Positions 24,331 through 54,401 of a stretch of 54,401 nucleotides of DNA are shown here, piece by piece. Origin of the DNA: Candidatus Iainarchaeum sp. (GTDB taxonomy: Archaea > B1Sed10-29 > WALL01); assembly GCA_021162685.1 (NCBI GenBank), contig JAGGYF010000002.1, positions 1 to 54,401 of the forward strand, in the 5' to 3' direction. Every line of letters begins with the position of its first letter. Within the stretch, counting starts at the first letter, position 1. The notes beneath the pieces were generated by a model. The model was given only the letters and a program-made list of their open reading frames with translations, had not been told where the DNA came from and did no database searches. The position numbers and the translations under genes were made by a program.

Positions 24331-24364
24331 TTAGCATCACGCGAAAATGAATCCAATGGATAAG

Positions 24365-24372: not shown

Positions 24373-24394
24373 CTAGTTCTTGCAGAATATTTTC

Positions 24395-25159
24395 ATGCCA
24401 AAAAAAGCGCCTACTGCCCATGAGGTCATAAAGGAATTCGGAAAGCAATTTGGGGTTAATTACTATTCAAAAGCCGGTATCCCAAAAAAGAGGTACTGGG
24501 GAGAGAAAGGGAAGATACAGTTCATAAGAGATATACGGAAGGCCGTTGATCTAAAGCACCAGGAACTTGCGACAAAGAGGGAGGAATTACTGAAGACAAA
24601 GTGGGCTATAGAAGAAGCAATCAAAAAGGAACTGACAAGACTAAAAGAGAAGGGATTGCTTGATAAAGAAGCCGTCAATAAAATTCTAAAAGGCGAGATA
24701 ACACCAGAGACCCTCGAAGGGTTCCAAACCCTCTCCGAGTTTGATACGCTACTTGAGATGAAGGAGGATTTGCAGAATCATCTCTCTGAAATGGAGGATG
24801 TGAAAAGAGAATGGGAAGACTTCAAGCCAAGGTTACATTTCGCTCGCGCGATTTACAGTATTGCTCGGAAATCAGAGTGGTTGGCCAGTGCAGAAGAACT
24901 TAGGCTAAAGGCAGCTATACTGGAGACCAAAGTGAGAGGTCAACGCGCACGAAAGAAAAGGAGACTAAGCGAACTTCTTACAGAGATTTATCATTATGGT
25001 GGAACAACCCCTGAGGTTCCAGACATCAAAGGGAAAGAGAGAAGAGAGTTAATGAAGGAGTTAGATGAAGCACTCGGCGAAGAGTCAGACCCAGAAAAAG
25101 TGATGGAGTCTTTCCTACAAGTGTGGAAAGAAAGAGAGAAAGCCAGAGAACGAGTGTAA
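24395..25159 (+). CDS. Coiled-coil protein
   Basis: 254 aa from ATG 24395 (MPKKAPTAHEVIKEFGKQF). A short basic N-terminal domain (YYSKAGIPKKRYWGEKGKI) is followed by long charged helices with heptads (KREELLKTKWAIEEAIKKEL; EMKEDLQNHLSEMEDVKREW) and a basic patch (RGQRARKKRRL). No membrane segment or catalytic motif. It diverges from the nine-gene membrane operon and could be a cytoplasmic partner of it, which is a guess from position only. The decayed gene end at 25164 follows. Confidence 0.65.
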   Translation: MPKKAPTAHEVIKEFGKQFGVNYYSKAGIPKKRYWGEKGKIQFIRDIRKAVDLKHQELATKREELLKTKWAIEEAIKKELTRLKEKGLLDKEAVNKILKGEITPETLEGFQTLSEFDTLLEMKEDLQNHLSEMEDVKREWEDFKPRLHFARAIYSIARKSEWLASAEELRLKAAILETKVRGQRARKKRRLSELLTEIYHYGGTTPEVPDIKGKERRELMKELDEALGEESDPEKVMESFLQVWKEREKARERV

Positions 25160-25163
25160 CCTA

Positions 25164-25262
25164 CTAGCATTCCATTATTAAAACCATACTATAATCATCC
25201 AGCATTTTCACAGTTTCTGTTATTGTTTTGCATCCCTTCTTTTTTGCGACCCCCTTTGGTAT
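25164..25262 (-). pseudogene. Decayed 3' end of a paralogue of the 32054 gene
   Basis: The minus strand encodes VAKKKGCKTITETVKMLDDY and then SMVLIMEC-stop. This matches the last 29 residues of the 134-aa protein at 32054-32458, differing at three residues plus three synonymous codons and a different stop codon. Upstream the match breaks off after a gap of about 16 nt, and no start or membrane anchor is present. The mix of silent and conservative changes suggests it was once part of a functional paralogue and is now a remnant. It forms the left edge of the accessory island. Confidence 0.8.
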
Positions 25263-32053: not shown

Positions 32054-32458
32054 TCAGCATTCCATTGTCAAAACCATACTATAATCATCCAGTATCTTCA
32101 CACTCTCTGTTATTGTTTTGCATCCCTTCTTTTTTGCGATAACAGTTACTTCCTCCCCCTTTGGTATCTCAAACGTGGCTCTACTATTACTTGTCATCTT
32201 TGTTATGCTCTCTCCATTCCATTCTGCTGTTACTCTGATATCATCTGCACCTTTCACATTTACTATAAGTGTGAACCTCTGCACAGGCAGCATCATATAC
32301 ACTGCAAGAGCCAAGAGGATAACTAATATACCCAATGTAATGCTCTTCACAGGTACTCCCTTTTCTTCAAGCTCCTCTTTTTTATCCAATACCCAGTATA
32401 CAGGTATCCCTTTTTCATCTAGTGCATCCATCAGATCCCAGATATCCATATCACTCAC
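32054..32458 (-). CDS. Mini anchor protein with the giant-protein N-terminus
   Basis: 134 aa. A cytoplasmic segment DLMDALDEKGIPVYWVLDK (residues 8-26) is followed by one transmembrane helix (about 39-57) and a small beta-sandwich (ATFEIPKGEEVTVIAKKKGC region) ending LDDYSMVLTMEC. The same segment-plus-helix-plus-beta-domain order opens the two giant proteins upstream (32665 and 43631), where the beta domain also ends in a Cys-containing strand (KEACEKAQEL; YAGCKTLRKT). It looks like an isolated copy of the anchor module. The start is GTG 32458 overlapping the previous stop; ATG 32449 is possible. A decayed second copy of its 3' end lies at 25164. Confidence 0.75.
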   Translation of the reverse strand: MSDMDIWDLMDALDEKGIPVYWVLDKKEELEEKGVPVKSITLGILVILLALAVYMMLPVQRFTLIVNVKGADDIRVTAEWNGESITKMTSNSRATFEIPKGEEVTVIAKKKGCKTITESVKILDDYSMVLTMEC

Positions 32459-32655
32459 GCAAACAAAAGATATGCAGCAATCAATGCAACCACAGCCAAT
32501 AGGACTCTGTTTTTTGTGTAGTACCTAGCCACAACAAGCAGCAACCCTAGTATAATAAATATCTTGAGGAGGATAGCCAACTCCCCACACTGCGGACATG
32601 CTACTTCAACAACATTGTGGAGGGGGTTTGGGAGGTTCATGTTGGACAACAGCAT
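32455..32655 (-). CDS. Small CPxC membrane peptide
   Basis: 66 aa. A short polar N-terminus with VACPQCGELA (a CPxC pair) is followed by two transmembrane helices (residues 28-43 and 49-65) and no tail. It lies between the 3631-aa giant and the mini anchor gene, 9 nt after one and overlapping the other by 4 nt (GTGA), so it is cotranscribed with them. The CPxC pair could bind zinc or exchange disulfides; given the many cysteines in the giants, a folding role is an attractive but unproven idea. Confidence 0.65.
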   Translation of the reverse strand: MLLSNMNLPNPLHNVVEVACPQCGELAILLKIFIILGLLLVVARYYTKNRVLLAVVALIAAYLLFA

Positions 32656-32664
32656 GTTCTTCTA

Positions 32665-35600
32665 CTATGTTACTTGTCCTGCTCCTCCTGTTTGGATGAT
32701 CCATTTTCCACTGCTACATACATATTTCCCACATTGTTTGCCATTGTTATAACTATTACAATACGCCACTGCACCTTTTCCTTCTGTTCCGTATCCATAG
32801 TCAACACAGCACTTGGTTGGGTCTCCACTGACTAACTCCCCAACATTTGTACATGTCTCAGCAGGTAGAGGATAACAGCAATAAGGTTTGTCACCACTGC
32901 AATCACCCGCAACATCCTTTTCGCACTCGTCTTTGTATTTTACTATTATTCCATTTATTGTTGACACCTTTCCTTCCCAATCTGTTGTATCTATATCCCT
33001 ACATTCATGGTAAACAAATCCATCTGGTTGTAGTATAGCTTTCTTCTCTTCGGCGTATTCCTCACATGTTTGTTTCGTCCCACTTGTCCCTTGATACACC
33101 ACTTCATCAGAGAAATCACCACAACCTACATTGTTGCATGCCTTCACTTTATAGGTATACGTTTTTGCTGGATCACTGAATATATCAACTGACCTAGCAG
33201 TACCTGTTGATGCTACTTGGCCGAAGTTATTGTTCCCATCCTTATCTGGTTTTCTATACACTTTATAATCAAAAGCACAGTCCACAGGACCCCATGTTAA
33301 AACAACGCGTTCTTCTCCCTGCGAATCCTTCTCTACGGAGAAGCTTATGCTCCCTACCTTCTTTGGTACACTTTCACATTGCGACCCTCCTGATCCTCCT
33401 CTTTGCTGTCCTCCCTGTCCTTGCGGTTCGTACCTACACACAAACACATCCTTTTTGCTTGCTGTTTTTTTCGGTACTCTCTCTTCTAGGCTCTTCTGTT
33501 TTATCTGTCCTGGTCCATCTGTTAACCTTATATATGCCTCTTGTCCATCGTGTATATGATCTTTCCAATAGCGTACAAACCCTCTCTGTGGATTTGTTCT
33601 TGTTCCCTCCTTCGCTTGTATAATAGCACTATCATCGTATGAAGAATATCCAGCATCTACACCCCACATCCAGCAATCGCTACAGTACCCTGTACTTGGA
33701 TTATCATGCTTTGTCCTGTCAAATGCAACATACCAGTTATTTCTTGTGTACGCTCCTGTATCATAGAATCTAAATTTGTTCTCACCGGTTACTAACCAGT
33801 CCTTTGGTATATCAAATGATACCCATCTTGGCGTTCTATCGTAGCCAAATACTGTACACCAGTGGAATGTTATATTTTGATCTGGGTTATCATTCACGAC
33901 GAGATAATTCACATCCTCATAAGGTGCTCTTCCCTTATCTTCTATCTTTCCTTTATTTTTTATAACTTGATTTATGTCCTCAGTGGAATAATAGTCAATA
34001 CCGCTCACATTTAACTCACATACGCTATTGTCAGGGCAAATTCCTCCACTACTTTTACTTTTACAGCAACCTTTTGCATTAGCATAAGATTTACCCATCC
34101 ACTTCCAATGTTTCATATCCTTATAACAACGGAATCTTCCACTTATTACTGGCTCTCCCTGTACACATTTCCCATAAACCCAAAGCGCCGCACTGTCTCC
34201 TGTTATCTTATCCGTGTCTACATACAACCATTTGTTCAGTCCATCGTTTAAGTCATTTCCACCAAGCCATCTGGGGGTGGCAAGATCCTTCGGGTTATCA
34301 TTCATAAATATGTTCGCATACAGCGGAGAGCATTTAATTCCTTGTACACCACTGCCCATTAGAACAGCATGTGTGGCAGTATATGGTACTGCTCCGGTAA
34401 GTTCGAGTGTTTTCTCCTGGTTTGCATCAATCCATCCAGTTGAGACTGCATATAACATCTGGCCTTTGTTTGTTACGTTCTCGCAGCTTCCTTCTCCAGT
34501 ATAGAATGCAATTACTCCTCTTCCTCCACTGGCTCCACCATTCTTTATCTTTAAGCTTACATCCAGAAGTTCTGAATGGCCTTTTACAGAAGCCTGCTCT
34601 ATGTCAAGGTCAGCCATTGTTGTTGCATAGATCATCTTGTCATTTGGGTCACTCTTCATGCCATCATTGTCTATAACAGTAAGCTCTGCTTTAAATGTGC
34701 CTCTACTAGGAATGGTGTATTGCGTTTGTTCTGATTCGCTTTCTGTGGTTGTAACTTCTGTATCCAGGTCAATGTAGTCAATGAAGATCGTGTTGTTTGT
34801 TGTTATTCCAATGTGGTGTTCCCCGTCTGCAAGTGCAACAGGCAACTTACCAAATTCTATGGTTTGCCACTCGTTACTTTTTGTCACAGTCTTATTTGCA
34901 ACTTCTTGCCCATCAACATTCACTTTGAGTAATGTTGGTCCTGATAATTCTTTTACCTTCATTGACATAGATGGTTTGGGGTTGCCAGTAGTTATTATCT
35001 TATAAGTAACACCTATGGTTCCAATCATAGTAACTTCATCAAAGTATACACTTCCAGTTACTGGATTATGTGTGTCAGTTTGCTCACCCCAATCTGGAGA
35101 ACCTCCTTCTAAGGTATCATCAAAGATTATACTGCGGAACTTCAGTGGCCTTTCAACTATTCCATCTCCTCCCCAGTGTCCAGCATTTCCTCCACCTGGA
35201 TTTGTCCCATCAAGTGGGAACTCGACCCACTTCCAACCAGTCCAATCAATTTTTAGTGATGGCTGCCATATCTCTCCATTGGCATCTACATATCTAATCC
35301 TGAGCATGTTATCTTTATGATCTGCTTTAAACCAGAAACCAATTCTAGTTGCAGCATCAGGGATAGGTGTGCTCAATGTATCTACTATCTCAAGGAATTC
35401 ATTTGCTTTGTGGCTAAACTCATAATCTGTTTTGAACACGTATCTTCCTTGTATTGATCCTGATTGTACAGCATCAGAGCTAACAGTTGTGCTTGTACAT
35501 CCTGTGTTACCAGAATTACAATCTATCTCATATGTTCTCCAGCCATCGGTGTTACCATCCTCAAAGTCATCTATCAAAGCATTACTTGAAAGTCTTATTT

Positions 35601-38600
35601 TGAGTTTTCCGCTTGCTGCATTGTCTCCAATTATCTTCGCACTTCCTCTCACATCATACTCCTCTGCCTCAATTCTTGTTGTCTGTGATATATTCCATAT
35701 ATACTTTGTTATGGTTCCATCTGGGTCATAGCTATCTGAGGCATCCAATGTTACTGTTTGTCCTGCTTGTGTTACTAGGTCTAGGCCAGCATCTGCAACA
35801 GGCTTTACGCCAACTGTTTCAGTAGTTATGTTGAATACTTGTTCTTTGTTTTCGGAGATATCTGTACTGTTATTATATGTCCAGTATCTTACCAATTCTG
35901 AAGCCAACGCTTGTCTGTACACATTAAGCTCTTCTGGATGGACATTGTAATACCTATCAGTGTAAACCAATCCAATCTCTATATCCACGCCAATTGCACC
36001 AGGTCCTTTTTTTAGTGTGTAGTAACCGAATACTCCTTTACTCTTATCAATGGAATCCGTTATGTAGTTGTATTTATCTGCAACCAACTCCTCTATGTAG
36101 TAATCCCTGTATTTTATACCAAAGCCTCTCTCGTCATAGTTCTGTGACCCATCTGAAACAATATCTTCAGAATAGCCAAAGATATCCCTTGAATCCACAT
36201 TTATGAATCCTTTTACTTTGGCTGCATCTATTGCATTTATGAATGGTGTTATGTCATATCCTTCATCCTGTTTGAATGCATAGTAGTTCACGTAATCTCC
36301 AAGTTCTGCTCTCATGTCCTTGTCAAGGTTCATTGCACCTATGACAAATGAGTAATTGCCTTCATCGCACCATGAAAGACATCTATTTGTGGATGACACA
36401 CTTAGGACACGTTTATCTGTAGGCGATCTCCTCAGAACGTCTCTATCTGTAGATGGCTTTATTGGAAGAATTACTGGAGCACTTCCGTCTGCAAGTGATA
36501 TACTCCTGTCTGTAGATGGCTCTATTACAACATCTTCATTGTTTGGCTCAAATTTGACTGTTACAATACCACAACCAATGTCCGTTCCTCTTACCCATAG
36601 CTCTTTGTTGGCAGTGTTTTCAAACTCTCCTATTGGGTATATAGCGGAGAAGCCTGCGAATCCAAGTTCTTGTCTGATCTTTTCCATTGTTGTCGCTGTT
36701 ATCTTCTCGTTTCCTACTGCATATCTATACTCTGTGTTTGGACCTGCGTTCAGTGCATCCTTCAACACTGCCATTGTGAATTGCTCTGCGTCGCATACCC
36801 TTACAACACCGTCTTCAATAGAGCATGGTGCTTCTACTCCTCTATCTATGTCTTCAGGGGCATTTCTGTATCTGTATACCTCATATTCACCAGGCGTAGT
36901 GACTTTCTCAGCAGCACCTGGGCAATCCAGCTCAAAGAAGAATGCCCTTCTGAACTCTGGGCTTGTGAAGTCAAACCATAGTGATGGTTTATAGTATCCA
37001 GAGCATTTCTCCATATCTGGTGCTCCCTTTATTACAATTTCTGCGTATGGTGCAGAACTAACATCTGCTGGTTTTCCTGGGATCTCCCATTCTGTTGCTC
37101 CTTCCTCTATTGGAATCTCTCTCCCGAATTCATTGTATATTGCTTTAACATTGATGTCAATGCCATAGTTCCTTACAACCCAGGATGGCGAGAAGTACGG
37201 CTTTTCAAATGTTACTGGCTCTGGCCAGTAGTTGTAAACCTTTATTGTCTGATTCATTTGTGGGTGCTCTTCATTCCCGTAAGCTTCTGTGAAGTTCCAT
37301 GTAACTGGTTCTGTTATACCATCAAATAGTATGCCGCCCACACTGAAGTTCCTTGTAAATGGTCCAAACTCATATCCTATTGCCTTTACTGTTATTGTTC
37401 CTGGCTTCAATGCTCCTCCCTCTTTTGTCGGCAGCACAAACTCAAAGTATGGCTGTTCTGCAAAGTTCTTCAGCCACATCTCGCATGACTCATTGGTGCA
37501 TGTTGACACATATCCTGCTGGTATGTCATCAGAATCAAAGTTCAGTGCATCTCCTGAGATGTATACAACATTATTCCTTCCCTTCTCGTCATGCACTGCT
37601 CCGTACCCCATTACTTGACCAGTTGGATGGTCTGCATCCCTCTTTATAATGGACAATACCAGTACCTTAGTTGTTGTATCCAATGCCTCATTGCCTTCGC
37701 TGTCAAATCCTTGTAGTATCATATCATAGTCAACCCAGCCGTGCTTGAATGTTCCACCCTCCCATGTGGTTGTTGGTTCATCTTCTCCGTAGTCCCACAT
37801 GTATGCTTCCATTGTGCTTGTCTGCTTTGTAAAGTCACTATCTCCTGTAACAAATATGCCTTTTCCAACAGCTGCTACCCATTTCTTTCCATTGGCAGGT
37901 ATTGTCAGGGCATTCCAGCGCGCTCGGACCATTGTTGGTTCATCGTTTCTCGGAACAGCAGCCAGTGCTTCAGCAGCTTTCATTGGGTCATTTTCTACAA
38001 GTTCTCTAATGTTAGTGGCGTTTTTGAGTTTTCCAAAGTGCGGTCCACTTTCTGATGTATATCCAAGCATCTCAGCAGTTATTGGTGTGTATTCCTCTCC
38101 TGCGTATCCTGTTTCCTCCTCCTCTTGTGGAACAATTTCAAATGTTGCACTCTTACAGTTTGCATGGGAACCGACATCTTGAATAAATCTATTTGGTATC
38201 CTTGAAATAGAGCTTGTGTAGTTGAATAGAGCACATACCCATACTGTTTTTGTACCTGCGCCCAATTTATTTACTGAATAGTTTAATGTTCCGAAATCTG
38301 TTGTTCTTACAGCAGAGTCCTTATCAATCTTCGCCATACCCAGCCATTGTGGTGGTCCATAAGGAGCACCTTGTTCATCAAGCACTATTGAGTAAACAGA
38401 GACGTTCTGTTTTGTATACTTCTCTGTGTTGTAGTTCTTTATTACTGCCTCAATGCTTACGGTGTCGCCTATACCATATGTAAATGTATCTGTTTGCTCC
38501 CCTTTACTGTTTCTCAGTGTTATGCTGTCAACACCAATGTCTATTATATCAGAGATCCATTCGCAGTCTGGGTCCATTCTACATAGTCTCTCATCTGTTT

Positions 38601-41600
38601 GTGATTTACAGTCGCCCGCGATGTCTGGGAAACATGCCCTTGTTGTAGTAAATCCTGGAACAATTGCCCATTCACATCCTTCTACAGATTCGCATACCTG
38701 TTCGTTGGCATTTCCTCCAGAACAATCAGGTCCATTACAGTCGCCAGGACAGTTAAAGTGGTCTTCTCCTGCACTTGGTTCGCAGGTGCCATTGTAGTTA
38801 CATACACATTCCCCTAGGATCCTACTCTGGCCTGCTCCACATAGTGATTCATCAAATTCCATACATGGATTACTCAAACCAGTATGCCAGTTCTCTCCCA
38901 GGCTTGATAAACAAGAGTTATCTCCGAACCCACAATCCTTGTAACAGTTGTCTATTGTTTCTCCTGCTGAAGCATTACAGCAGTAGTCTCCACATGTACA
39001 ATCATATGTGTTCTGTATGCTTCCGTTCTCATCTCTGTACATACATCCAAACCATGACTCTCCTGCATCACATACTCCATCGCCATTACATGGAGAACAA
39101 TCCTGTGGGCATGTTGAATAGTTCTCTGGTGGGTTGCCATTTGGCTCACATAATCCATTTCCGCATGTACAATTGTCTGTAACATTTCCTGTTACCACTC
39201 CAGCAGTTTCATCTATGTATGTACATGCTGTATAGCTCTCTCCAGCCCACCACTCGCATGTACCGTTTTTATCACACGTTCCAGCACAATCCTGTGGACA
39301 CGATGTATAGTTCTCACCTATTGTCCCCTGACAGATGCCATTCCCACAACCACAATCTGATGGACAGGTTGTTGCATTTTCAGTTGCAGGGTCACATACT
39401 CCATCTCCACAATAGCAGTCTGTTGTGCCTGCTTCTGTTGCTAGGTCACATATCCCATCTCCAAGATGACAATCATTTGGACACCAGCGTTTATCTTCAC
39501 CAGGGTCGCAGACACCGTCATTATCGCATGGACAATCTGATGGACAGTTGTTCGCATCCTCATCTGCCCATCTGTCATTTGTTTCACAGATACCATTGTA
39601 GTTGCATGGTTGGACAAGTTCAGAACAATCGCTTACTGGGCAGTCCTGGCATGAACCCTCTGCTTTTTCAACTGCTTCTATGTTCAAAATAATACTCTTG
39701 CAATCCATGTCATTTGTTCCCTCTACGTTATCATCAATGATTGTCGCTCCGCTGAAATTTAGATGCCCATTGCTCCAGAGGTAATAGTTGGCACATACAG
39801 TTAACTCAACATATCCAATGTTTGTATTGTTCAAAACCAAGCCAACAACTGTGCTTTCGCCTGGATTTAATGGTGGTAGGTAATCCCATTCATCTGGGAA
39901 ACTGACCAAGGAGGTAGGTATTGCAGTTATCGTCACTATTGGTTCAAGTTCATTTTTTCCATCACTATCATAGTCAAGGATTGGCACAGTTTCTGTTCCA
40001 GCATTTCTCACGGTTGCGTTTACATATATTGTGTCACCTTCGTGAGGTGTCATAGGCGATACAGTAATCTGCGTAATTTGTATATTTGGCAATGCGACAA
40101 CATGCGCTATCTGGTAATCTGAATAGTTGAGAGACTGGTTCTTTTCCTCATCATTGAGAGACTGGTTCTTTTCCTCATCATACAATCTAACAGCAACCTC
40201 AATCCTGTATTCGCCTGTTTCTTCAGGTATCCAAGAGAATGCAAATCTGTGGTTTGCAATGGTGAAATCTCCCTTATAGTATGCATTTGCATTTATATCA
40301 TACATCTCACTTGTTTCATTATACTTCCATATCTGCATCTCATAATCATCTGGAGATGCATCATCGTCCAGCATAATGCTTCCAGATACAATGCCCTGCT
40401 TCTGAACTGTGAATGTGTTTGCAGAATCAATCTCAACAGGTAGTGTCAACTCATAGAATTTTGCCCATGGCTGCTCAACTGCATGCTCGTCAACTAGTGC
40501 AAAGTTTATCTGCTTATCAAAATCATTGTTGTTCTCAAACTCAACAACTGTCGCAAACCTTCTTCCCTTTATCTCTCCCTGCTCTGGCACTGTGATACTT
40601 GGTACAGTGTACTTTGTATGGTCAAAGTATCTTCCCTCTTCAAACATGTATGATGCAGTATAAACCCTTCCCAAAACATTTGATATTGGTGTCTGTTGCG
40701 ATTCTGGGATCTCCAGTACTGTGTACGGCAACACAAATCCAGACTGGTCATTAAACAATACCAGCCAGTCATTGTATTCTGGCCTCAATGTTGTTGTTGG
40801 TTCTCCCTCTTTGTAAACCTTCATCTTTACTGCTAGTTGTAATTCGTCATCTGCTTCAAGTTTATAGAAATTAGCAAGTTTTGGATTATCTGCTACAGGA
40901 TCTATCCTCGTAGTATCTGCTATGCTCTCTGGTTCTTCTATCTTTTGCACGCTTCCATCTGTTCTGACAATTGCACCAGAGTATGTAATTGGATACGAGT
41001 ATCCCTTTGATGATGTTATCTCAATTCCATATGAGCTGGCATCTCTCTTTGCCTTTGCCCTTATCTGTAGGTAGAATGTGCTTCCATCTGCAAATGTCCC
41101 ACCATCAACCACATGCTGTCCTGCTTTGTCTGTTGAGAGCCATGCACTATAAAGATAGAAGTCTGGATGCGTATCAATATAATGCCAGCCCTGTGTCTGT
41201 GTTGTATCAATTGTTATTGGTACGTGCACCCATGCATTATCCGGCTGTGTGGTGAATACTTTTCCATCGTTTGTTACCCATTTCGCTCTGTAATGCAATT
41301 CTGTATCTGGTGTAAGTACTGCAGTTCTCACGTGCAAGGGTATTGGTATATTGAAGATCACAGGTTTGTTATACTTTGTTATATCTATCTTGAAATACTT
41401 TGCAGCACTTATGCTTCCTGCCTCTTCATATGATAGAGGTGTTGAATAACTAAATTCTGTTGCCAAGAGGGGTCCAGAGACTGTTGGATCCTCTAAGCTA
41501 TAATCCTTTGGCCTCACACTCTTTATGATTATTGGGCTGGCTTCAATATCAGAGACTGAGCCCTGGTCACCAACCCAGAACTCTACCTCTGCGCTTCTAA

Positions 41601-43560: not shown

Positions 43561-43605
43561 CTACACACCTCATGCATAGAATTTGCATTGCTACAAATTT
43601 AGGGC

Positions 43606-43620
43606 GCTTTTATATATATA
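43606..43620 (-). promoter_or_regulatory. Internal promoter of the 3631-aa gene
   Basis: TATATATAAAAGC on the minus strand lies about 50 nt upstream of ATG 43560, in the gap after the 43631 gene. GAGGTG at 43566-43571 is the ribosome binding site. The giant can thus be expressed separately from the upstream two genes. Confidence 0.5.
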
Positions 43621-43630
43621 CTTAATGGGT

Positions 43631-46600
43631 TTATTCCAATGTCATTTCTACCTCCATTTTGTCTAGATAATCTGCTTTCGGCCCGACCCACTCACCTTGA
43701 GTTGTCGATGACTCCTGGCATAAGATCTTCTTTATATTCCAATTCCCTGATTTCTCTTTACATTTGGTTTCTTGTGATTTCCAATTACTTACAGAATCCC
43801 ATATAGTGTATAACTCATCTGTAGACGGTGTGATCTTTATATAGAATTTATCCTCTTCTTCTAGCAATTCCTCTCCTCCTTTCCTGAGACAGACTTTCAT
43901 ATATTTTACTGTTAATGCTTCTCCAAATTCAATTGATCTCCATTGGTTACATGTTCCTTCGTTCACTACAGTAATATTGTGTCGCGAATAGCAACCAGAT
44001 TCTGTACTGCTTCCTCCATTTTCCCCTCCCCAAGCCTTTGTGATTGTGTACCATCTACAGTCATCACCAGATGACATAAATCCTTCAATTCCACAATGTT
44101 GCTGATCATTTAATGGACAACAGTCTTTTAATATGCTCGAAACACATATATCAGTAGTTTCCTTACTAGCACTGCAATCTCTCCACTTATTCTGATTATA
44201 CTTTGGTGCTCCGCATACATACATTTTCTTCTTGTCAATTGTCAGCGTCATAGTTGCTGTGTTCCCTACCTTGTCTTCAGCTGTTATTGTGTAGGTATGT
44301 TCCTGGTCGTCGTCTGCAGTGATTTCGATGATCCTTTTCCAACCTTTGTCGTTTCCAGAGAATATAGGCTGTTCATCAAGGTCATGTATTTTTTTTCTCT
44401 CTCCGTTCACTATGACTGCAGAGCCACCGGACACCCATCTTGGACCATCAACTTTAACACCTACAATCATTGTTTCTGAACACTCTTCTTTGTCATCGAA
44501 TTGCATCGGGGGAAGGAATGTGTGACTAGTCCCTAAGTTGTCCAATATCCCGGCGTAGACATCAATGCCCCATATAGTCTGTATGCTAAAGGTATTATCA
44601 GAATCTTCAACATAGTCTTGCTCTATTTTGTTCAAGCCGCCTTTGTATGCAATGTACCTGCCAGAGTCATCTGCGTGGTCCCAAGCATAGCAGCCTGCAT
44701 CACCATATCCTTGTGAGTAATCCATACTTTTCCCTTCCTGCTGGAACGCCAGTTCAAGTACAGGCGGAGTGGTATCTACAACTATATATATGATCCTAGG
44801 TGTTGTCTGTATATTTCCGTTCTCATCAATGGCAGAACAACTTATTTGAAGGTAGTTGAGGCCCTCTGCTACAAGGAACTCATTAGCTGATACCATGGTG
44901 TGGCACTCATATTCCTGTGCGTATGGGTTTCCTTCTATTGGCATGCAGTCTAGTGGTTCTGTGCTTACCTTCCCGTTTGCATCTGTATTTTGTGTGTTAA
45001 CTGCTTGTATTGTGCACCCACTTATTTTATTTGGTGATGTAACATATATTGGAATAACCACATCTGGTGAGTTTACATAGAATGGTCCTGATGTATCTGT
45101 ACACATCATACCTCCTGTTTCCTCTACTACGTGATGCGTTTCTTCAGGATTAAATGGTGCACACACACTTCCGTCTCCTAATATATCGCCTGTTCGTATT
45201 CCTTTGAACTCTCCTAGTATGTAGTTCCACTCTATCATGGGCTGGCCTTCTTCAAGCCTTACCACAGCAATTTTATCTGATGTACCAGTGTTTCCATTTG
45301 TATCTGTACAGTTCACTTTTATCATATTTGCTCCATCTATGTCACAATCATAGTTGTTGTAAACCTGTTTATTCGGCATGAGGTTTATACCAGAGCATTT
45401 AAATTCATATCTTATTGTTCCGTCAGGCATTGTATAGTTGTTTGTTTGGGTGCAAGTGTACTCATTTAAGTCAGTTGGGCAAACCCTGTACGCAGTACAT
45501 GATTCAACACCAAACCTATCTGTTGCATTAAACGAGATTGTTACAGTTGTTTCATTTGTTGCGCCAGGATATACAATGGAGAGGACTGTTGGAGGCGTTG
45601 CATCAAGCTTTATGGATTTTTCAGCTCTTGGACTCCAGATCCCACCTATGTTCTTGCATGTTGCTTTTATTTTGTATACGCCGTCATCACTACCGCCTAG
45701 GGTCCAGTTTGCGATCCTCAATGTGTTTCCTTCCCAGTCCGATGTTTCTTTGTTATATTCATTCACACGTTCAAAACTCCAATATGAACCTTCGTCTTCT
45801 GCATTCCATACCTTACACGCGATTGCGTCATCAGATGTTGTTATCCTTAGCTGAACATTTCTGTTCCCTGTGACATTTGCATCATATATGGGTGATTCCA
45901 ATAGGTTTCCGTCACGGTCATAGATTGCATCTATTACAAATGATTCTATTGTGGGTATTTCCCAGCCCTCTGCTTCTATGCATTCGCCCAGATCAAATAC
46001 CTGCTCCCCATTGCCTTTGATCTCAATATTATTTTCTTTTCCAGTCCAGAATGCAACAAGATTCGTTATAAAGCATCTTCTCTGGAAATCCAGGTTGTCT
46101 GCATTGGAATATACAATGCCTATCTGGAGCAGCCCATAATCTGCATTATATCTATAATACCCAGCAACGTTTGGCAATTGATTTGATACTGCCTTATCCC
46201 TGACCCATCTCAGTTTTTGGTCCGTTTCTTCCTTCATATCTTCTATAGTATATTCTCTATAATCTATCACAAATGGCGCGTATTGGTTATCGCTTATATC
46301 ACTGTCCTTTGCACCGCCAACAAAGTTATCCCAAGGCATAAACCCACTGACTTCTGTTTTCAGTGATGACAACGGCTCATTTGTTAGGGAACTGGAGAAT
46401 GAGAAGTACTTCACGATATCCATTGTAGAGGGTTCCCCTTTGAGGTCGTCATCATAGTTCATCAGTCCAAGTATGTACGGGCCGTACTGTGGGTTGCACC
46501 ATGGTACGTTCCTGTCAATCTCTGGCTCCAAAACAATGACATCGTTCTGCCTCTTTTCCAGCTTTAATTTTACTAATCCACATGTTATATCTTTTGTGAG

Positions 46601-49600
46601 TACTACGTTGTTTTGCCCAGCTTCCTCTTCTGTTGAAACCACACTAATGCTCTCTTCACTTCCCTCACCAAGCACCTTTGCTGTTACAATGTCATTGCCA
46701 AATGCGTAGTATCTCACATCCTCAATTCTATGTGATTGCTGCAGGTCTGAAACAGCAAGCCCTATGGCTTCTGAGAGCTGCTCTGCGTCACATAGGTAAA
46801 CAGTATCATCGGAAACAGCACATGAGTCCATTGTTGTTTTGTAATCCCTCTTATCCTCTCTGAATACATTAAATGCAGTGCCTAGGTCTGGTTTTTCTGG
46901 CTCAGGGCCAAGCGCAAATGAACAATTAAATATCATCTCATATTCTGCGCTCCTCTCTATGTGTGATTCCCTTGTATCTGTTGTCACAACTAATCTGTTT
47001 TTACTTTCATATAGGTTGCATTCTACTCCTGGGGGTATTGCAGTTATTGAGAGTATTGCCTTTCCTCTTGGAGGTATTTTTACAGAAATCTTCCCATCTT
47101 TATCCTTCTCCTTGCTTGTTATTTCAAAACCATTTGCATCATACACAACAACCTTTCTGCTCAATCCAAATTCTTCGTAATACTCCCACGTGCCAGTCTC
47201 TAGTTCTAATGATAACTCTTCCTCCCAGTTGTTTGTCACTGTTGCATAGTCAAATGTTATATTCTGCCTTTTGTCATCAAGTACAAATTTCATAGAATAT
47301 GGCAATGGCTCAAAGTGCGTTCCGTGTATCTCATAGCTCCTTTCAAGTGTTCCAATAGATTTGCTTTGTGCTCTTACCTTCAAGTATCCCCAATCCAATA
47401 CCAAGGGTTGGGACTGCGCTTCTGTTGTGAAGTATGTGCCTTCTACTCCTTCATACAGAGGAGCATATATTGTTTGACCTGGTGCCTCAAGAACAACAAC
47501 ATTTTTTATGCCATCTGTTTCTATCCTGCTAGTTATTGGTACACCTACACTACTGCTCAGTGTTTTCTCTAAGATGTCTATTCTTACGTCCTTCACCTCA
47601 GTGTTCAGTGTTTGTTCGGATAGTGCATTTCCTTCGTCATCTATTGGTGTGATCCTGAACACAAAATCAGCAGCACCAACATTGATTGTCTTGAACGGCT
47701 GTTGCATTGGCAATCCTTTCTTCCATAAATATATAACCACAGATGATGTATGCAGGTCTTTTCCTTTACCTGTTATCTCAATTACTTTTTTCTTTCCAGC
47801 ACCTATTGTCACTTCAGATGGGTATTCCAACTCCTCAATACCAGGTGCCTGAACAAACAATGATGCCTCTTGGTCTATCTCCCCCTTATTCTTCAGTGTG
47901 ATCTCTATCTTCATATCTCTTGCGCCTTTTGTCAGGCTCATGACAGGAAGCATCTCACTTTCATTGAATACTGCCCATGAACAACCCTCTGTATAAGGTG
48001 CATAATGGCATAGGTAAACCATTGGCTTAACCCTGGCAACAACATTTGGTATGCTTGTTTGTTCCTCTATTGGTGCTTCTTCTATATGGAATTTTAGTGT
48101 GTTTTTTAGATCATTGAATATGCTTATCTCAGCAAGGGATGTTGGTTCTCTTGCTTTTAGTGTTATTACTAAATGAACAATATCATCTGTGTCAACCTTA
48201 TACAGTTCTGGTGCCTCTGTTCCAGGTCTTATACTTACTGGCAACTCATTTGTATACTCTGTTTCGTAGATATTCGTTCTGTTCCCATTAATCCTCTCAA
48301 TCCATCCTGAATAATACATAGGCACAACATATTTCTGCCCAGTTACTGGTGGGAATGAATCAATTGCAAATGCATAGTTTTGGCTTTCATGCGATGCAAT
48401 TGCTTTTATGTGCAGGAAGATTGCAGAACCCTGTGTTAACGTAACCTCATTTGTTCCAGACTCAGCATTTGGGTCCTCTGAGAAGTATGCCTTGTATGCG
48501 TTGAAATCCTGAGTTTCAATAATATTCCAATCAGCATCACCATCTACTATATCTATTGTTGTCTCTTTCCACCCACTATCTATCTGTGTTCCATCCTCTT
48601 CTTCCCATACTGCTCTGTAGTGTACTGTTGTGTTCCCTTTCGCAAGTTTCCTAGCAAACATCGGGATTGTTATGGTATAACTGCCAGCATCATAATCGCT
48701 GATTACAAACTTAACGTATTTTGATGTTGTATCTATACTTCCTCTTGTTGGATATGAATCATAACTATATGAGTCAAATGCATATGGCTTTACAATGGGC
48801 TTTGGCTGCAAGCTGAATATGTAAGGGTCTATCCCTCCAATGACAACAGGCGTTCTTAAAGGATTCTCCTTCGTTCCAGGGTCCCCAACCCATAGCTCAA
48901 CAGTTATTGTTTTGTATGGCTCTCTCTTCTTTGGGTCAGCATATGGCAATCCAATATCAAGCTTTGTTTCATACATCTTCTCCTTTACAAATTCTAGTTT
49001 TGGATTTTGTGGCACAGTAAATCCAATTTCATGCTTTACTTCTCTTAGGTTAATTTCCGTTTCAATGTTATTTGTGACATCAAACACGTTTGTGTATGTT
49101 GGTCCATACGTCTTTCCTTCCTCGTCTGTATACTTTGCTTTTAGGAATACCTTTTGTCCTCTGTACGCGTTGAAAACAACTTTCCTATTATCTCCGCTTC
49201 TCTGATTATCTATCTCCTCAATGTCACCATATGTTGTTTCGTATAGCCAAACCCTTACATCCTTTTTTGGTATGCCCTCAACCTTTGTAAGTACTTCTAT
49301 GGTTACTTCAAGTGGTACAATCTTTAGGACCTGTCTTACTGGGGTACCTGGCTCAACATCAAATGTTTCAAATTCGTCATAATCTGCTTTCCCAGGTGCT
49401 AATGCTCTGAAGTAGTATGTTCCAGCAAGAACCTTTTTGAATTGACACAAACCAGTTGCAGGCGTCACGCATTCCCTGTATACTATGTCATCTAGTGTCA
49501 TCAATTGCACTCTAACACCCTGCATGCCCTCCTCAATACCTTTTGCATTTACTGCCTTAACCTCAACAGTTGCAGAATTGCTCTCATCAATCTTCTGCAT

Positions 49601-51259
49601 CTTTATCTCAGTATCAATCCCTCCTACAATTCTCTCTTGTGTGGGTATGTAATCATCATGCACAAGTTGTAATGTGTATTCAGCATCCTTTTGTAATACA
49701 AGTGTTACTTTTCCAGCAGATGTTGTTCCAGAATCCACAACTATGCCGTCTTCTATGGCAATTACTCTCACTCTGCTAATACCTATATTCGTAGAATTAT
49801 CCTTCACAACGATTGTGGTTGGGAAGCCTTCCTGCATGACCAGGTTTATGTCCTGTTGTGATAGTTGTGTCCTAAGTGGGCCAGTGGCATCTCTAAATCT
49901 TCCCAATGGGTCTTCTGCTCTTATATAATACCTCTGCCCCTCTGGAATATCTAGATACGCCTTTCCGTCTTCATCTGTTGTTGCCGGTTCAATCCCTTCT
50001 ATAGCTTTTCCCTGGGAGTCTACAACAGTTACAAGTATGCCCTCTAATGGATTCCCTTGACCGTCCTTTATTGTGACATATGTTGTATACGTCTTTGTTT
50101 CAATGGGTGGCTGAGGAGGGCAATTTGGCACATCTTGGGGACATGTATCGCACGTTTCTCCTATCTCCTGTATGTTATTTCCACAAACTGGTTGCTGCGA
50201 ACACTTAACATCCTGTGGGCAATTATCGCATGTCTCTCCTAGTTCAGCAATGCCATTCCCACAAACACCTGTTGTATTGCAACTGCTTCCAACATCCTCT
50301 GGGCAATTATCACAGTTCTCTCCAGGTTCAACTTCACCATTCCCACAAACAGCATTTTCTGGCAATCTCATATCCCTGCCGCAGACATCTGCATCCTTGC
50401 TATCTGGTACACCGTCTCCATCTATATCATCATCTTCAATATCTGGTATACCGTCATTATCATTGTCCATATCTTCTGAGTCCGGTACGCCGTCATTATC
50501 ACAGTCCATCATCCCTATATCTGATGTTTTCCTTGCAGGCAATGTTATTTGTCCTGTTCTATCAAGTTCCTCTTTAAGCTCTGAAACAGTCTCTGTTTTC
50601 CCATATCCTACGCATTGTATATCAATATCATAATCATCCAATAAGCAGGTATTCTCATCCAAAAATAATGTGTTCCCATCTATGCCCCATGTTATATCTA
50701 CTGCTTTTCCATCCTTATCAAATGCTCTTATCACACATCCCTCAAGTGTTCCATAGTCCTCTGCAACAAGTATCGCAGTGTAATACTCCTGCGCTATTGT
50801 GCTACATGCTTTTACTCCTAGTAAGCCTTCACATTCCATCTCTACTTCTACTTCTGTTCCTGCATCAATTGTTTTTCTCAATGTTTTGCATCCAGCATAC
50901 TTCACGACAAGGTCAATGCTTCCGAACCCCTCAAATGTTACTTTGCCTTCTTCATCTGTTTTTAATTCAAGTTCACTTCCATCTGGTAGTTTGGCAATAA
51001 CATCAGCATCAACGAGTGTGGTGTTCCCAAATTTCACAAGAACTACTGTTTCTGCGGGCTGCGGCTTTGCTCCTGTAATAGACATAGCAATGACCAAAAG
51101 CAATATGATAAAAATACCAACAACGAGTGGGAAGCTTGGCAACCCCAACCCTTCTATAGCATCTACTACCTTGTAAACAGGAATGCCCTTTGCATCAAGA
51201 GCATCAAGCACTCCGTAATACTTATCTTCTATTGCTTTATATGTTCCTTTTAGGTTCAT
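43631..51259 (-). CDS. Giant envelope protein (2542 aa)
   Basis: Paralogue of the 3631-aa protein with the same opening: VLDALDAKGIPVYKVVD (about 17-33), one transmembrane helix (44-62), and a beta domain with YAGCKTL. Next come a DxDxDGxxD thrombospondin-type-3-like acidic tract (about 248-300), Cys repeats CGNGxxExGExCDxCPxDV (about 300-385), and carboxypeptidase-regulatory/Ig-like repeats to about 1150. The CDAEQ module is near 1490 and the WC...MNYD module follows (about 1590-1750). Ig-like domains with bacterial-surface-type DTTPP linkers follow, and the C-terminus is Cys-rich. ATG 51259 fits the GGTGA site better than the in-frame GTG at 51268, which overlaps the previous stop. Cotranscribed with the 51265 gene. 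Confidence 0.87.
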   Translation of the reverse strand: MNLKGTYKAIEDKYYGVLDALDAKGIPVYKVVDAIEGLGLPSFPLVVGIFIILLLVIAMSITGAKPQPAETVVLVKFGNTTLVDADVIAKLPDGSELELKTDEEGKVTFEGFGSIDLVVKYAGCKTLRKTIDAGTEVEVEMECEGLLGVKACSTIAQEYYTAILVAEDYGTLEGCVIRAFDKDGKAVDITWGIDGNTLFLDENTCLLDDYDIDIQCVGYGKTETVSELKEELDRTGQITLPARKTSDIGMMDCDNDGVPDSEDMDNDNDGIPDIEDDDIDGDGVPDSKDADVCGRDMRLPENAVCGNGEVEPGENCDNCPEDVGSSCNTTGVCGNGIAELGETCDNCPQDVKCSQQPVCGNNIQEIGETCDTCPQDVPNCPPQPPIETKTYTTYVTIKDGQGNPLEGILVTVVDSQGKAIEGIEPATTDEDGKAYLDIPEGQRYYIRAEDPLGRFRDATGPLRTQLSQQDINLVMQEGFPTTIVVKDNSTNIGISRVRVIAIEDGIVVDSGTTSAGKVTLVLQKDAEYTLQLVHDDYIPTQERIVGGIDTEIKMQKIDESNSATVEVKAVNAKGIEEGMQGVRVQLMTLDDIVYRECVTPATGLCQFKKVLAGTYYFRALAPGKADYDEFETFDVEPGTPVRQVLKIVPLEVTIEVLTKVEGIPKKDVRVWLYETTYGDIEEIDNQRSGDNRKVVFNAYRGQKVFLKAKYTDEEGKTYGPTYTNVFDVTNNIETEINLREVKHEIGFTVPQNPKLEFVKEKMYETKLDIGLPYADPKKREPYKTITVELWVGDPGTKENPLRTPVVIGGIDPYIFSLQPKPIVKPYAFDSYSYDSYPTRGSIDTTSKYVKFVISDYDAGSYTITIPMFARKLAKGNTTVHYRAVWEEEDGTQIDSGWKETTIDIVDGDADWNIIETQDFNAYKAYFSEDPNAESGTNEVTLTQGSAIFLHIKAIASHESQNYAFAIDSFPPVTGQKYVVPMYYSGWIERINGNRTNIYETEYTNELPVSIRPGTEAPELYKVDTDDIVHLVITLKAREPTSLAEISIFNDLKNTLKFHIEEAPIEEQTSIPNVVARVKPMVYLCHYAPYTEGCSWAVFNESEMLPVMSLTKGARDMKIEITLKNKGEIDQEASLFVQAPGIEELEYPSEVTIGAGKKKVIEITGKGKDLHTSSVVIYLWKKGLPMQQPFKTINVGAADFVFRITPIDDEGNALSEQTLNTEVKDVRIDILEKTLSSSVGVPITSRIETDGIKNVVVLEAPGQTIYAPLYEGVEGTYFTTEAQSQPLVLDWGYLKVRAQSKSIGTLERSYEIHGTHFEPLPYSMKFVLDDKRQNITFDYATVTNNWEEELSLELETGTWEYYEEFGLSRKVVVYDANGFEITSKEKDKDGKISVKIPPRGKAILSITAIPPGVECNLYESKNRLVVTTDTRESHIERSAEYEMIFNCSFALGPEPEKPDLGTAFNVFREDKRDYKTTMDSCAVSDDTVYLCDAEQLSEAIGLAVSDLQQSHRIEDVRYYAFGNDIVTAKVLGEGSEESISVVSTEEEAGQNNVVLTKDITCGLVKLKLEKRQNDVIVLEPEIDRNVPWCNPQYGPYILGLMNYDDDLKGEPSTMDIVKYFSFSSSLTNEPLSSLKTEVSGFMPWDNFVGGAKDSDISDNQYAPFVIDYREYTIEDMKEETDQKLRWVRDKAVSNQLPNVAGYYRYNADYGLLQIGIVYSNADNLDFQRRCFITNLVAFWTGKENNIEIKGNGEQVFDLGECIEAEGWEIPTIESFVIDAIYDRDGNLLESPIYDANVTGNRNVQLRITTSDDAIACKVWNAEDEGSYWSFERVNEYNKETSDWEGNTLRIANWTLGGSDDGVYKIKATCKNIGGIWSPRAEKSIKLDATPPTVLSIVYPGATNETTVTISFNATDRFGVESCTAYRVCPTDLNEYTCTQTNNYTMPDGTIRYEFKCSGINLMPNKQVYNNYDCDIDGANMIKVNCTDTNGNTGTSDKIAVVRLEEGQPMIEWNYILGEFKGIRTGDILGDGSVCAPFNPEETHHVVEETGGMMCTDTSGPFYVNSPDVVIPIYVTSPNKISGCTIQAVNTQNTDANGKVSTEPLDCMPIEGNPYAQEYECHTMVSANEFLVAEGLNYLQISCSAIDENGNIQTTPRIIYIVVDTTPPVLELAFQQEGKSMDYSQGYGDAGCYAWDHADDSGRYIAYKGGLNKIEQDYVEDSDNTFSIQTIWGIDVYAGILDNLGTSHTFLPPMQFDDKEECSETMIVGVKVDGPRWVSGGSAVIVNGERKKIHDLDEQPIFSGNDKGWKRIIEITADDDQEHTYTITAEDKVGNTATMTLTIDKKKMYVCGAPKYNQNKWRDCSASKETTDICVSSILKDCCPLNDQQHCGIEGFMSSGDDCRWYTITKAWGGENGGSSTESGCYSRHNITVVNEGTCNQWRSIEFGEALTVKYMKVCLRKGGEELLEEEDKFYIKITPSTDELYTIWDSVSNWKSQETKCKEKSGNWNIKKILCQESSTTQGEWVGPKADYLDKMEVEMTLE
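50110..50515 (-). repeat. Cys repeats and Ca-binding-type acidic repeats in the 2542-aa protein
   Basis: Three CGNGxxExGExCDxCPxD units and a tract of DNDGVPDSEDMDND-type repeats encode, respectively, disulfide-rich and thrombospondin-type-3-like calcium-binding segments. The Cys units match those in the 3631-aa protein. Confidence 0.8.
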
Positions 51260-51264
51260 GGATT

Positions 51265-54200
51265 TCACCTTTGTAATTCAATCTTTGTTATAACTACTTG
51301 GCAAGCAAAATCATCACATGCTGCAAAACAAGGTTCTAATACGCTACCTCCTGGTAGATAGTCAGATAGCCTAGATTCAGCAGCCTTCGCCCTGATGATG
51401 TACAACCCACCGCCTTTTAGTTCTGAGTGACATACCTCAAGTTCAAAAGGATCTGGAATAGCAAGTTCTGCAATACTCGTTACAGTCCCAGCAATAGGTA
51501 CTGCCTCTAATGCTCCAGTAGCAAGGTTTGCAAAGAATCTAGGATCTGATTGTCTGCACTGCGAGGCGTCTTGGACTCTCCATCCTACTCTCAACGCTTG
51601 AGGTGCAATCTTGACCAAACAAAATTTTAAGAAGAATTTCAAGTTTTCCAAGTTTCTTAAATTCCTGAGATTTTTAACAAAGGTTTTTCCCATCGTCTTC
51701 AAAAATTGCGACATCCTTGCCCCTTTACCAGCAGCCTGCGCACTCTTGAATGCGGTTTGCACTGTGCCGATTGTGAGCACATCCAATACGCCAGAACACA
51801 CTGCCTGACTTGCACATTCTGGGTTCCTAACAATCTTGTTCTCGTTTCTGTCCTGCCACTCCTGGTATTTTGAAATAATCCTATCCCAATTTACATCTCC
51901 AGTACCATCATAGTAGACAATTATGGTCACGCCATCTTCATCTAATTGATTATTACCTGCTTCATCCCTTACCTCCACAGAGCCGGGGATACCTTCATCA
52001 GCAAATCCTAGTTCTTCTATTTGCTCTTGGGAGTATCTATGTCTTACAATATTACATGCTCTTATGATCTCATCGGCAATGTTATCTGTGGTGAATTGGG
52101 GCATGTATCCATTAAGGGATTGATGTGCATTATCCTGCGTAAGATTTACATTGTTTACATCGTCTTTGCACTCTATCTCTATTTGCTTGTCTTTGGTCCA
52201 ATCAATTATTGCTATAGGTAGTGTTGGTTTTTCCATACCCTCAATTAACGTAGGAACACATGTTACATCTGCATATCTTGGGTTTTCACTACCAGTTGTC
52301 GTATCCAGCTTGCTTTGTACAGTACAGTCATATTCTGCGTCTGTAAAGTCTTGAAGTGCTATTCTTACCTTACAATTCTTTGTGCCTATCGGCGTGTACA
52401 GATCCTTTAGTGTAAAGAACATATTTGGGTCTTCCCTTCTTCTATTCTCATATTTAATAAATTCAAGGTATTTTTCCATGTTAAAGTTTTCTATGATGGG
52501 TCCTTCCTCATCCCATGTTGCTCTGAAACTCCTTGTGGCAGGCTGGCCTTGCTTGTCCTGGCATGTCACAGTTATGTTATTTACTGCATTCACTTGCAGA
52601 GGTAGTGGGCATGTGTATTCTATTTTTGTTGGGTCGCCTGTTGACAGCTCTCTTGGTGTGCATTCCCATTTTGGTGGTATTTTTGGGTTCGTTACATCAC
52701 TTCCATTCAGATTATTCCAGTGTTCATCATCATCCAAAAGTTCTCCAGTGTAATCCTTGTGCTTCCACCACTGAACAGATGCAGTGCAGGATTGCATGCC
52801 GTCCTCATCGCTTGCTACAAATATTAGGTTGAATAGTGATGTGTCTTCATCCAATTTCTTAACAGCACTGAATACAAAGTCCTTTCCGTTCTCGCTGAAT
52901 CTTACTGGATTTGCTTTCCCTTCCTCATCCCCTACTGTGTATAACTCACTCTGGTCTCCACACTTGGGGTCAAACCAGAACCTTGTTTGTTCTGCATCTG
53001 TTGTTGGGAATCCATTTGTGCTGAATATAAAGCTGTTCGGCAGTTCAAAATCCGGAAGTTCAGCACTCCATCTGTACACCTTTGTTGTGCCCATTGGTTT
53101 CTCAGTTCCAAACTCGTCCCTGCATTTAAGTTCAAGCTCAATATACTTGTTTGTTTCGCTGATATACGGACTGATGCAGGATATGTCTGCATTCCAGAAG
53201 TATAGGCCTCTTCCTTTGTCAGTTATGTAGCAGCACCCAGCATAGTTTTCATAGTTTTCTGTTGGTTCTGTATCTCCACATTCTGGTGCAGGTGGCAATG
53301 TTCCAGTCATTTGTTTTGGATAAAGCCAGCATTCGGAGAGCTTTGCATATCTTGACCTTGCTTTTATGAAGCCAGATTTTGGTATCCTCACATACGGCTC
53401 TCTTGTGTCTACAATATCAGGTAATGTCCTACCTATAAGTTCAATCCCGCTTGTATCCAATGTTATGGTATCCCTTGTTTTGTGTGATGGGATGCCTTCT
53501 TCAGATATACAGTACGCACCAACGAACTTCAGTCCAGAGCCCTCTGTTAGTGTGAATTCCTGGCCAAATATACCATATGCGTCTTCCTGGCTGGAATACT
53601 CCACAGGATACTTCTTCTGGCCTGTTTCCTCTCCATCTGGCTCTATGTTATATACTATACAGTATGATGCATTATTCTCAACCTTGATATTTACGTTTAC
53701 ATTCTGTGTTCCTGTTATGTCATAACTTAATACTTCCTGAGATTCATCTGTTTCACTCTGTTTGAATGAATACACGTAAAATTCAGATATCTCAGGCCCT
53801 TGTAGATTCACAACTTCGTCTGCATCAGCATCATCTATTGGTGAATAAATCATCTGATAATTCGGTGTGGATACGACCCATCCTTTGAGTGTGCCAGTTG
53901 TTACGAATTGCACAACTCTGGTGACAAATAGCGACCTGTACTGTTTCAGTTGTTCAACAGGAACATCATTCCTGTTGTAAACCAAGCCAAGGTAAACATC
54001 ATTCTTGTCGTCAATGGTGAAATATCCAATTACTGGCCTCCCAGCATTTTTGAACGAATTCATCGCAAATATGGGGCAGTATTCTCCTTCCCTCATCTCA
54101 CAGTCCCTATATTTTATGAACGCTTGGGCTTCTGTACCTGCTCTTGCGTTTACAATAGATCCTGCTGATAACCCTTTTGATTCATAACCAAACAATAAGC

Positions 54201-54401
54201 TTTCGTCCAGTACATTTCTCTGCGCGCTTAGTTGTATTGCCTCAACAAATGCCTGCGGATTGTAGCCTGATGTAAGATCAAAACTATAATACCTTCCGAA
54301 ATCAGGCCTCAATCCTTTGTCATAATTCAGCAATCCAATGAAATACGCAAACGAATCCTTGGAGCACCATGTCACCTTGTCCTGCAACACATTCTCTAAT
54401 G
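51265..54401 (-). CDS. Giant envelope protein, third member (N-terminus beyond window)
   Basis: The frame is open to the right edge; only the C-terminal part of about 1045 residues is visible. It begins inside the WC module (VTWCSKDSFAYFIGLLNYDK), aligned with the other two giants and preceded by LENVLQD, matching the EPEIDRNVPWC position. Ig-like, Cys-containing domains follow, then a helical, basic region (KGARMSQFLKTMGKTFVKNL) unlike the other two, a hydrophobic stretch (ATGALEAVPIAGTVTSIAEL) and a Cys-rich beta end (PCFAACDDFACQVVITKIEL). Its stop overlaps the 43631 reading frame by 4 nt (GTGA). Whether it has the DALDxKGIP anchor cannot be seen here. Confidence 0.85.
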   Translation of the reverse strand, partial: LENVLQDKVTWCSKDSFAYFIGLLNYDKGLRPDFGRYYSFDLTSGYNPQAFVEAIQLSAQRNVLDESLLFGYESKGLSAGSIVNARAGTEAQAFIKYRDCEMREGEYCPIFAMNSFKNAGRPVIGYFTIDDKNDVYLGLVYNRNDVPVEQLKQYRSLFVTRVVQFVTTGTLKGWVVSTPNYQMIYSPIDDADADEVVNLQGPEISEFYVYSFKQSETDESQEVLSYDITGTQNVNVNIKVENNASYCIVYNIEPDGEETGQKKYPVEYSSQEDAYGIFGQEFTLTEGSGLKFVGAYCISEEGIPSHKTRDTITLDTSGIELIGRTLPDIVDTREPYVRIPKSGFIKARSRYAKLSECWLYPKQMTGTLPPAPECGDTEPTENYENYAGCCYITDKGRGLYFWNADISCISPYISETNKYIELELKCRDEFGTEKPMGTTKVYRWSAELPDFELPNSFIFSTNGFPTTDAEQTRFWFDPKCGDQSELYTVGDEEGKANPVRFSENGKDFVFSAVKKLDEDTSLFNLIFVASDEDGMQSCTASVQWWKHKDYTGELLDDDEHWNNLNGSDVTNPKIPPKWECTPRELSTGDPTKIEYTCPLPLQVNAVNNITVTCQDKQGQPATRSFRATWDEEGPIIENFNMEKYLEFIKYENRRREDPNMFFTLKDLYTPIGTKNCKVRIALQDFTDAEYDCTVQSKLDTTTGSENPRYADVTCVPTLIEGMEKPTLPIAIIDWTKDKQIEIECKDDVNNVNLTQDNAHQSLNGYMPQFTTDNIADEIIRACNIVRHRYSQEQIEELGFADEGIPGSVEVRDEAGNNQLDEDGVTIIVYYDGTGDVNWDRIISKYQEWQDRNENKIVRNPECASQAVCSGVLDVLTIGTVQTAFKSAQAAGKGARMSQFLKTMGKTFVKNLRNLRNLENLKFFLKFCLVKIAPQALRVGWRVQDASQCRQSDPRFFANLATGALEAVPIAGTVTSIAELAIPDPFELEVCHSELKGGGLYIIRAKAAESRLSDYLPGGSVLEPCFAACDDFACQVVITKIELQR

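Follow-up and report, generated by a model that had tools for sequence, protein, structure and literature searches.

An undescribed N-terminal anchor module on giant proteins in a putative surface-display locus of two archaeal phyla

What do neighbouring giant genes that open with the same short segment make together in the genome of a tiny uncultured archaeon? We addressed this in a 54,401-nucleotide stretch of Candidatus Iainarchaeum sp. (assembly GCA_021162685.1, contig JAGGYF010000002.1; the whole stretch is called the window), where two giant genes and one small gene begin with a common module and a further giant is cut by the contig end. On sequence grounds the module is an undescribed N-terminal anchor, almost always heading very large chains, and the locus is probably surface fibre or adhesin display machinery of two phyla of such archaea. 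The open reading frames (ORFs) and modules concerned, the latter including a transmembrane (TM) helix, are these:

32054..32458, minus strand: mini protein, a stand-alone anchor module of 134 amino acids (aa); ORF with a GTG start, similarity to the giants
32665..43560, minus strand: giant D, 3,631 aa; ORF, Pfam matches, orthologue of the fourth giant in genomes G002 and G007
43631..51268, minus strand: giant B, 2,545 aa; ORF, Pfam matches, orthologue of the second giant in G002
43369..43560, minus strand: anchor module (helices and TM) of giant D; profile match (E = 4e-25) and AlphaFold2 model
51053..51262, minus strand: anchor module of giant B; profile match (E = 2.3e-28)
51265..54399, minus strand: C-terminal part of an A-type giant that is truncated at the end of the contig; homology to first-giant C-termini (G002, G005, G007 and G008)

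Structure and distribution of the anchor module

A preliminary description of this DNA had proposed that the mini, giant D and giant B share an N-terminal arrangement of motif, TM helix and small β-domain, and all three elements are indeed recovered by sequence similarity. The motif DALDxKGIP(V/I) occurs once per ORF, at residue 11 of the mini, 12 of giant D and 22 of giant B (chance per position about 4e-11 at the composition of these proteins), and similarity reaches through the TM helix and β-domain (E = 7e-20 for mini versus giant D; E = 2e-8 for mini versus giant B). The genes also form the tightly spaced operon described, all co-oriented: 54399..51265 and 51268..43631 overlap by 4 bp, and the subsequent gaps are 70 bp and then 206 bp. 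The count of three copies was too low, as the genome has at least five, with two further giant N-termini on contigs C39 and C40. By Pfam, giant D comprises the module, CarboxypepD_reg/SpaA-like domains, Cys-rich repeats, PKD and a CBM_11-like domain, and giant B has a CarboxypepD_reg match of 46.7 bits (cut-off 32.3); DUF2341, a mark of PilY-like tip adhesins, is not among the Pfam matches of the window giants.

An AlphaFold2 model of the first 159 residues of giant D (91 sequences; predicted local distance difference test score, pLDDT, 92.4) runs in order through helix 2–16, a KGIP turn, helix 21–30, a GIP turn, helix 35–53 and seven strands. In sequence, the two short helices appear as LDxKGIPVY...IDPIExxGIPS ahead of the single membrane helix, and the consensus of 91 members (Y-x3-EDKYY-x2-LD-x-L-x2-KGIPVYK-x-IDPIE-x3-IPSFPL) places about 35 strongly conserved residues before it. 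The TM helix itself is modelled with about 19 residues and leads straight into the β-domain. Foldseek searches with the module model gave a best match of E = 4.6e-7 and 42 matches at E ≤ 0.001, mostly of transthyretin (TTR), CnaB or CarboxypepD type, in alignments that were mostly β-domain-sized. As modelled, the β-domain is a transthyretin/CarboxypepD_reg/CnaB-like fold, a seven-stranded prealbumin-like sandwich; the earlier view that the whole module lacks a named domain thus stands for the helical part, which has no above-chance sequence match in Pfam, NCBIfam or the PDB, and not for the β-domain. Families of this known fold lack the helix-GIP-helix-TM segment in front, unlike the module.

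Scanning a genome collection, we found carriers among Diapherotrites (including archaeon GW2011_AR10, CP010424.1; hereafter AR10), Micrarchaeota-labelled archaea and a few other NCBI labels. A profile search detected the module in 81 of 87 genomes of AR10's phylum and in 14 of 19 of the window's phylum, and in every near-complete genome (≥90% complete) of either (25/25 and 5/5). Among 247 archaea spread over the domain, 27 had a match, 25 of them in these two phyla; the two matches beyond were marginal (E = 2.7e-4 and 7.6e-4). Complete module ORFs encode 1,135–3,631 aa in 61 of 68 cases, a count in which some contigs, fetched by two routes, appear twice; the other seven are short, four being the stand-alone minis of the window's family and the remaining three having 79, 170 and 525 aa. 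The preliminary description had proposed to check with an N-terminal profile whether the module always heads very large chains and whether a short copy is conserved nearby. The first holds almost throughout, and the second within the window's family, to which the stand-alone copy of 131–134 aa is confined: the 134-aa ORF is real and is conserved at this length in relatives G001, G002 and G004. Unrelated single-TM proteins, named there as the outcome that would speak against the module, were looked for and were not collected.

Ordered giants and the layout of the array

The giants were compared by all-against-all BLAST and two trees (FastTree, 95 rows; IQ-TREE, 47 rows). In both trees most giants group by array position, across genera and families, and not by genome; they therefore look like distinct ordered subunits. 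Those of AR10's phylum form clades p1–p4 (IQ-TREE support 100, 98, 96 and 93), with p2 holding the giants that have a pilin-like gene directly in front, and those of the window's lineage form clades A (support 100), D (100) and B (window and G002; 99). The two phyla occupy separate halves of the trees, which argues that the giant sets were probably duplicated independently in each; the single-giant loci of G011, G012 and G014 may reflect an earlier state. Several giants of the window's lineage have in common a core domain of about 300 aa:

45929..46948, minus strand: core domain (CDAEQ...WC...GLMNYD), residues 1441–1780 of giant B; found by phmmer over the giants

A second window copy lies at about 35791–36963. 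Pfam has no match to the domain, fold comparison with the PDB gave nothing better than E = 0.18, and its AlphaFold2 model reaches a pLDDT of 72; for these reasons we claim no function for it.

How many giants the complete array holds can be approached from the contig ends. The right end of contig C4 equals the left end of C39 (127 bp), the right ends of C39 and C40 are identical, and the left end of C40 equals the right end of the window (127-bp overlaps). Ordered on these 127-bp end overlaps, the simplest path would be C4–C39–(missing repeat)–C40–(missing repeat)–window, giving four giants and the mini, as in G002. The contigs break within giants at these common ends (L007 right, L008 both, window right), which suggests that the assembler collapsed a long stretch nearly identical between two A-type giants; the bin lacks the middle part of these giants. 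Four AAA_14/ATPase_2-type ATPase genes also lie in or near gaps of the locus (L007 1442–2827, L008 3403–4593, window 1–645 and 25292–26631); they carry DUF4143 or DUF234 where complete, and two sit between giant or pilin-like genes.

Such a stretch speaks for another explanation, in which the array would be a recombining reservoir of variable surface antigens, like phase-variable coats, and ordered positions would matter little. The two A-type giants do share contig-end sequence flanking the missing middle, and the C-terminal halves of the giants are poorly conserved; however, most giants cluster by position rather than by genome, and recombination is suggested for one pair only, which makes this explanation quite improbable.

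In G001, G002 and G004 the last giant is followed by the mini and then by a run of small membrane genes; in the window, too, the mini comes after the last giant. In the tree, the minis of G002 and G004 pair and fall with giant D (82% support); the window mini is a long branch whose placement is unsure. It is possible, judging from this position, that the mini is a cap or spacer in the anchor array. A phage origin was considered and rejected, tblastn with the mini giving no match among 50,697 phage records. The mini and the next membrane gene are direct neighbours in relatives; in the window they are parted by a 6.8-kb insertion (25166–32139) flanked by a direct repeat of the 3' end of the mini gene:

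25166..25249, minus strand: duplicated 3' end of the mini gene at the left edge of the insertion; 84-nt repeat, 93% identical, matching mini residues 98–134 at 88% at the protein level
32056..32139, minus strand: matching copy inside the intact mini gene at the right edge; found by repeat search

The insertion carries an AAA_14/DUF4143 ATPase split over two ORFs, HEPN/nucleotidyltransferase pairs, an OGG-type glycosylase and a winged helix-turn-helix protein; no integrase was recognised among the proteins scanned.

The pilus-type neighbourhood

In relatives the locus runs from T2SSF and T2SSE through an archaeosortase, a pilin-like protein and one to four giants to the small membrane genes, and an order with T2SSE, T2SSF, archaeosortase and pilin-like gene is found in both phyla; in AR10 the pilin-like gene precedes the second giant, not the first. 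Upstream sequence of 2 kb or more is visible for 57 loci; 34 of them have one or more of these four neighbours, and in 18 the pilin-like gene is immediately upstream. All four genes of the window's genome lie on contig C4, with scores of 65.2 bits for T2SSE (cut-off 24.9), 29.4 for T2SSF (25.2) and 26.9 for exosortase (25.7). T2SSE is also found in G014 (E = 3.5e-17); T2SSF is weaker in G014 and G037, below cut-off. At the far end, the small membrane genes are kept beside giants in both phyla:

21325..24448, minus strand: small membrane-protein genes; homologues lie directly behind the last giant or mini in relatives

These homologues start from −18 to about 420 bp past the last module gene in G014, G012, G007, G037, G001, G002 and G004. 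The wider window region 18694–24448 encodes several small membrane proteins in a row, together with a secreted-looking protein of 205 aa and another protein of 487 aa; those scanned gave no family matches.

The pilin-like protein has a single TM helix and 257–743 aa, and starts GFxxFT(A/P)L; judged by eye, its N-termini are of GFxxFTxL or RGQ type. Pfam matches among 22 such proteins were all below cut-off (N_methyl in one, E = 0.0017; ComGF weakly in 13), and the AR10 neighbours have no Pfam pilin match. Might the giants themselves be pilin-like, with the TM helix entering a filament core after cleavage to leave the filament studded with giant chains? The pilus-type locus would suit this, GIPSFPL before the TM helix superficially resembles the GFxxFTPL of the pilin-like protein, and a weak PDB match to a Pilin_N protein covers the TM helix and β-domain (E = 0.03). 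Archaeal pilins have a long N-terminal helix, unlike the short TM helix of the giants, which runs into the β-domain, and several members (VPSFAL, VPSVLV) lack the glycine that a pilin has at its cleavage site. We consider pilin-like giants very improbable.

The archaeosortase match to TIGR04178 reaches 41.1 bits (cut-off 23), and Cys, Glu, Asn, Arg and His are invariant in 20 of 20 sequences; no named-subfamily cut-off is reached. Comparing two result tables by hand, we counted about 40 genomes of AR10's phylum with the archaeosortase and a module giant on one contig, about 60 bp to 11 kb apart and in many of them under 1 kb. A classical substrate was sought at the C-termini of the giants and rejected: the giants and pilin-like proteins examined have no C-terminal TM helix or sorting signal. 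Outside the locus, the sole window protein with a C-terminal motif, TM helix and basic tail is that of 876–4106, a possible C-terminally anchored surface protein of 1,076 aa with a signal peptide-like start and MopE-type and fn3 domains. That the genes are tightly linked and that the locus lacks C-terminal signals would be accounted for if the helix-GIP-helix-TM module were an inverted, N-terminal sorting signal through which the adjacent archaeosortase-like enzyme releases or cross-links the giants. Those two observations are its whole basis, archaeosortases are not expected to cut on the membrane side of the conserved motif, and we give this idea the least credence.

A display locus compared with known systems

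The explanation that we favour, with roughly an even chance of being right, is a display locus in which giant membrane-tethered adhesin or fibre subunits are shown via a dedicated type IV pilus-type machine. Each giant would enter the membrane by its single N-terminal TM helix, the helix-GIP-helix segment remaining on the cytoplasmic face and the chain of 2,000–3,000 residues (TTR/immunoglobulin (Ig)-like, PKD, Cys-rich and binding-type domains) reaching outward, a topology that the domain types and Cys-rich repeats support. The cytoplasmic segment would most likely serve as a docking site that collects the jointly encoded giants at the membrane, by contacts between giants, on the T2SSF platform or on the neighbouring small membrane proteins; the ATPase and platform, the large pilin-like protein and the archaeosortase would then help to assemble or process the surface structure. 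Position-specific giants would be distinct subunits of one structure, in which the mini, an anchor without a chain, could fill or terminate an anchor position. Topology, docking, hetero-assembly, adhesion and the role of the mini are our reading of sequence; the sorting or assembly tag and the capping or competing mini of the preliminary description likewise stand as proposals.

Several observations weigh against this explanation. None of the four neighbours is seen in 23 of the 57 loci with visible upstream sequence, some giants lie elsewhere in the genome (G037:C1:304771), and the pilin-like protein matches known pilin families weakly. The number of giants per locus, from one to four, means that a fixed hetero-complex is not obligatory, and the second and third giants of G007 pair together rather than by position. 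With a mean net charge of −2.9 across 91 sequences, the N-terminal segment is acidic, so that the positive-inside rule lends no support to an N-in orientation; we infer its cytoplasmic side from the extracellular-type C-terminal domains, not from charge.

The varying number of giants and the placement of some away from pilus genes would equally suit independent tethered adhesins, for which the module is merely a membrane anchor and the pilus genes are near since both serve attachment, without coupling or hetero-assembly; archaeal pilus genes often have large adhesin-like proteins nearby (PMC4858521). However, a plain anchor needs no 35 strongly conserved residues before its TM helix, and the position-specific orthology suggests non-interchangeable roles. 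We regard independent adhesins as rather unlikely.

If the locus is indeed a display machine, it gives a concrete gene set for how small archaea touch hosts, surfaces or each other. Almost nothing is known of the cell surface in either phylum, yet the module is kept in every near-complete genome tested and, in the loci read, is spent on multi-kilobase giants, up to about 33 kb per array in genomes of about 1 Mb. The anchor family is usable for annotation, and the locus shows an archaeosortase linked to pilus-type genes with no evident substrate of the C-terminal kind. Within the open literature searched (most subscription papers and all preprints lying outside its scope), we found no description of the anchor, the ordered giant sets or the archaeosortase link.

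Giant membrane-anchored extracellular proteins with long Ig-like regions and a proposed part in host contact are likewise known from DPANN archaea as the SPEARE-type proteins of Nanohaloarchaeota (PMC10266531). Those are about 8,900–9,400 aa long, and their TM helix, close to the C-terminal part, is followed by a cytosolic VirB4/TraG-like ATPase domain, whereas the present giants have 1,100–3,600 aa and one N-terminal TM helix; in the giants of the window, Pfam finds no ATPase domain and no TM helix lies at the C-terminus. The linked enzyme falls within the exosortase/archaeosortase family (TIGR04178, PF09721), passing family cut-offs and keeping Cys, Arg and His. Among archaea, type IV pilus loci that include large adhesin-like or S-layer-like proteins have been described (Makarova 2016, PMC4858521), and the text of PMC6393860 (Makarova 2019) notes DPANN pilus islands with surface proteins and, in some DPANN, pilus-locus components without recognisable relatives. 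The present locus shares with these a VirB11-type ATPase, a TadC/FlaJ-type platform, and pilin-like and large secreted proteins. Signal peptides, a C-terminal TM helix or DUF2341 are the features given for the large proteins of those loci; in PMC4858521 and the text of PMC6393860, no such protein is said to carry an N-terminal helix-GIP-helix-TM anchor and to occur, up to four per set, beside an archaeosortase. The anchor family is thus apparently new, within a known kind of pilus locus with large surface proteins.

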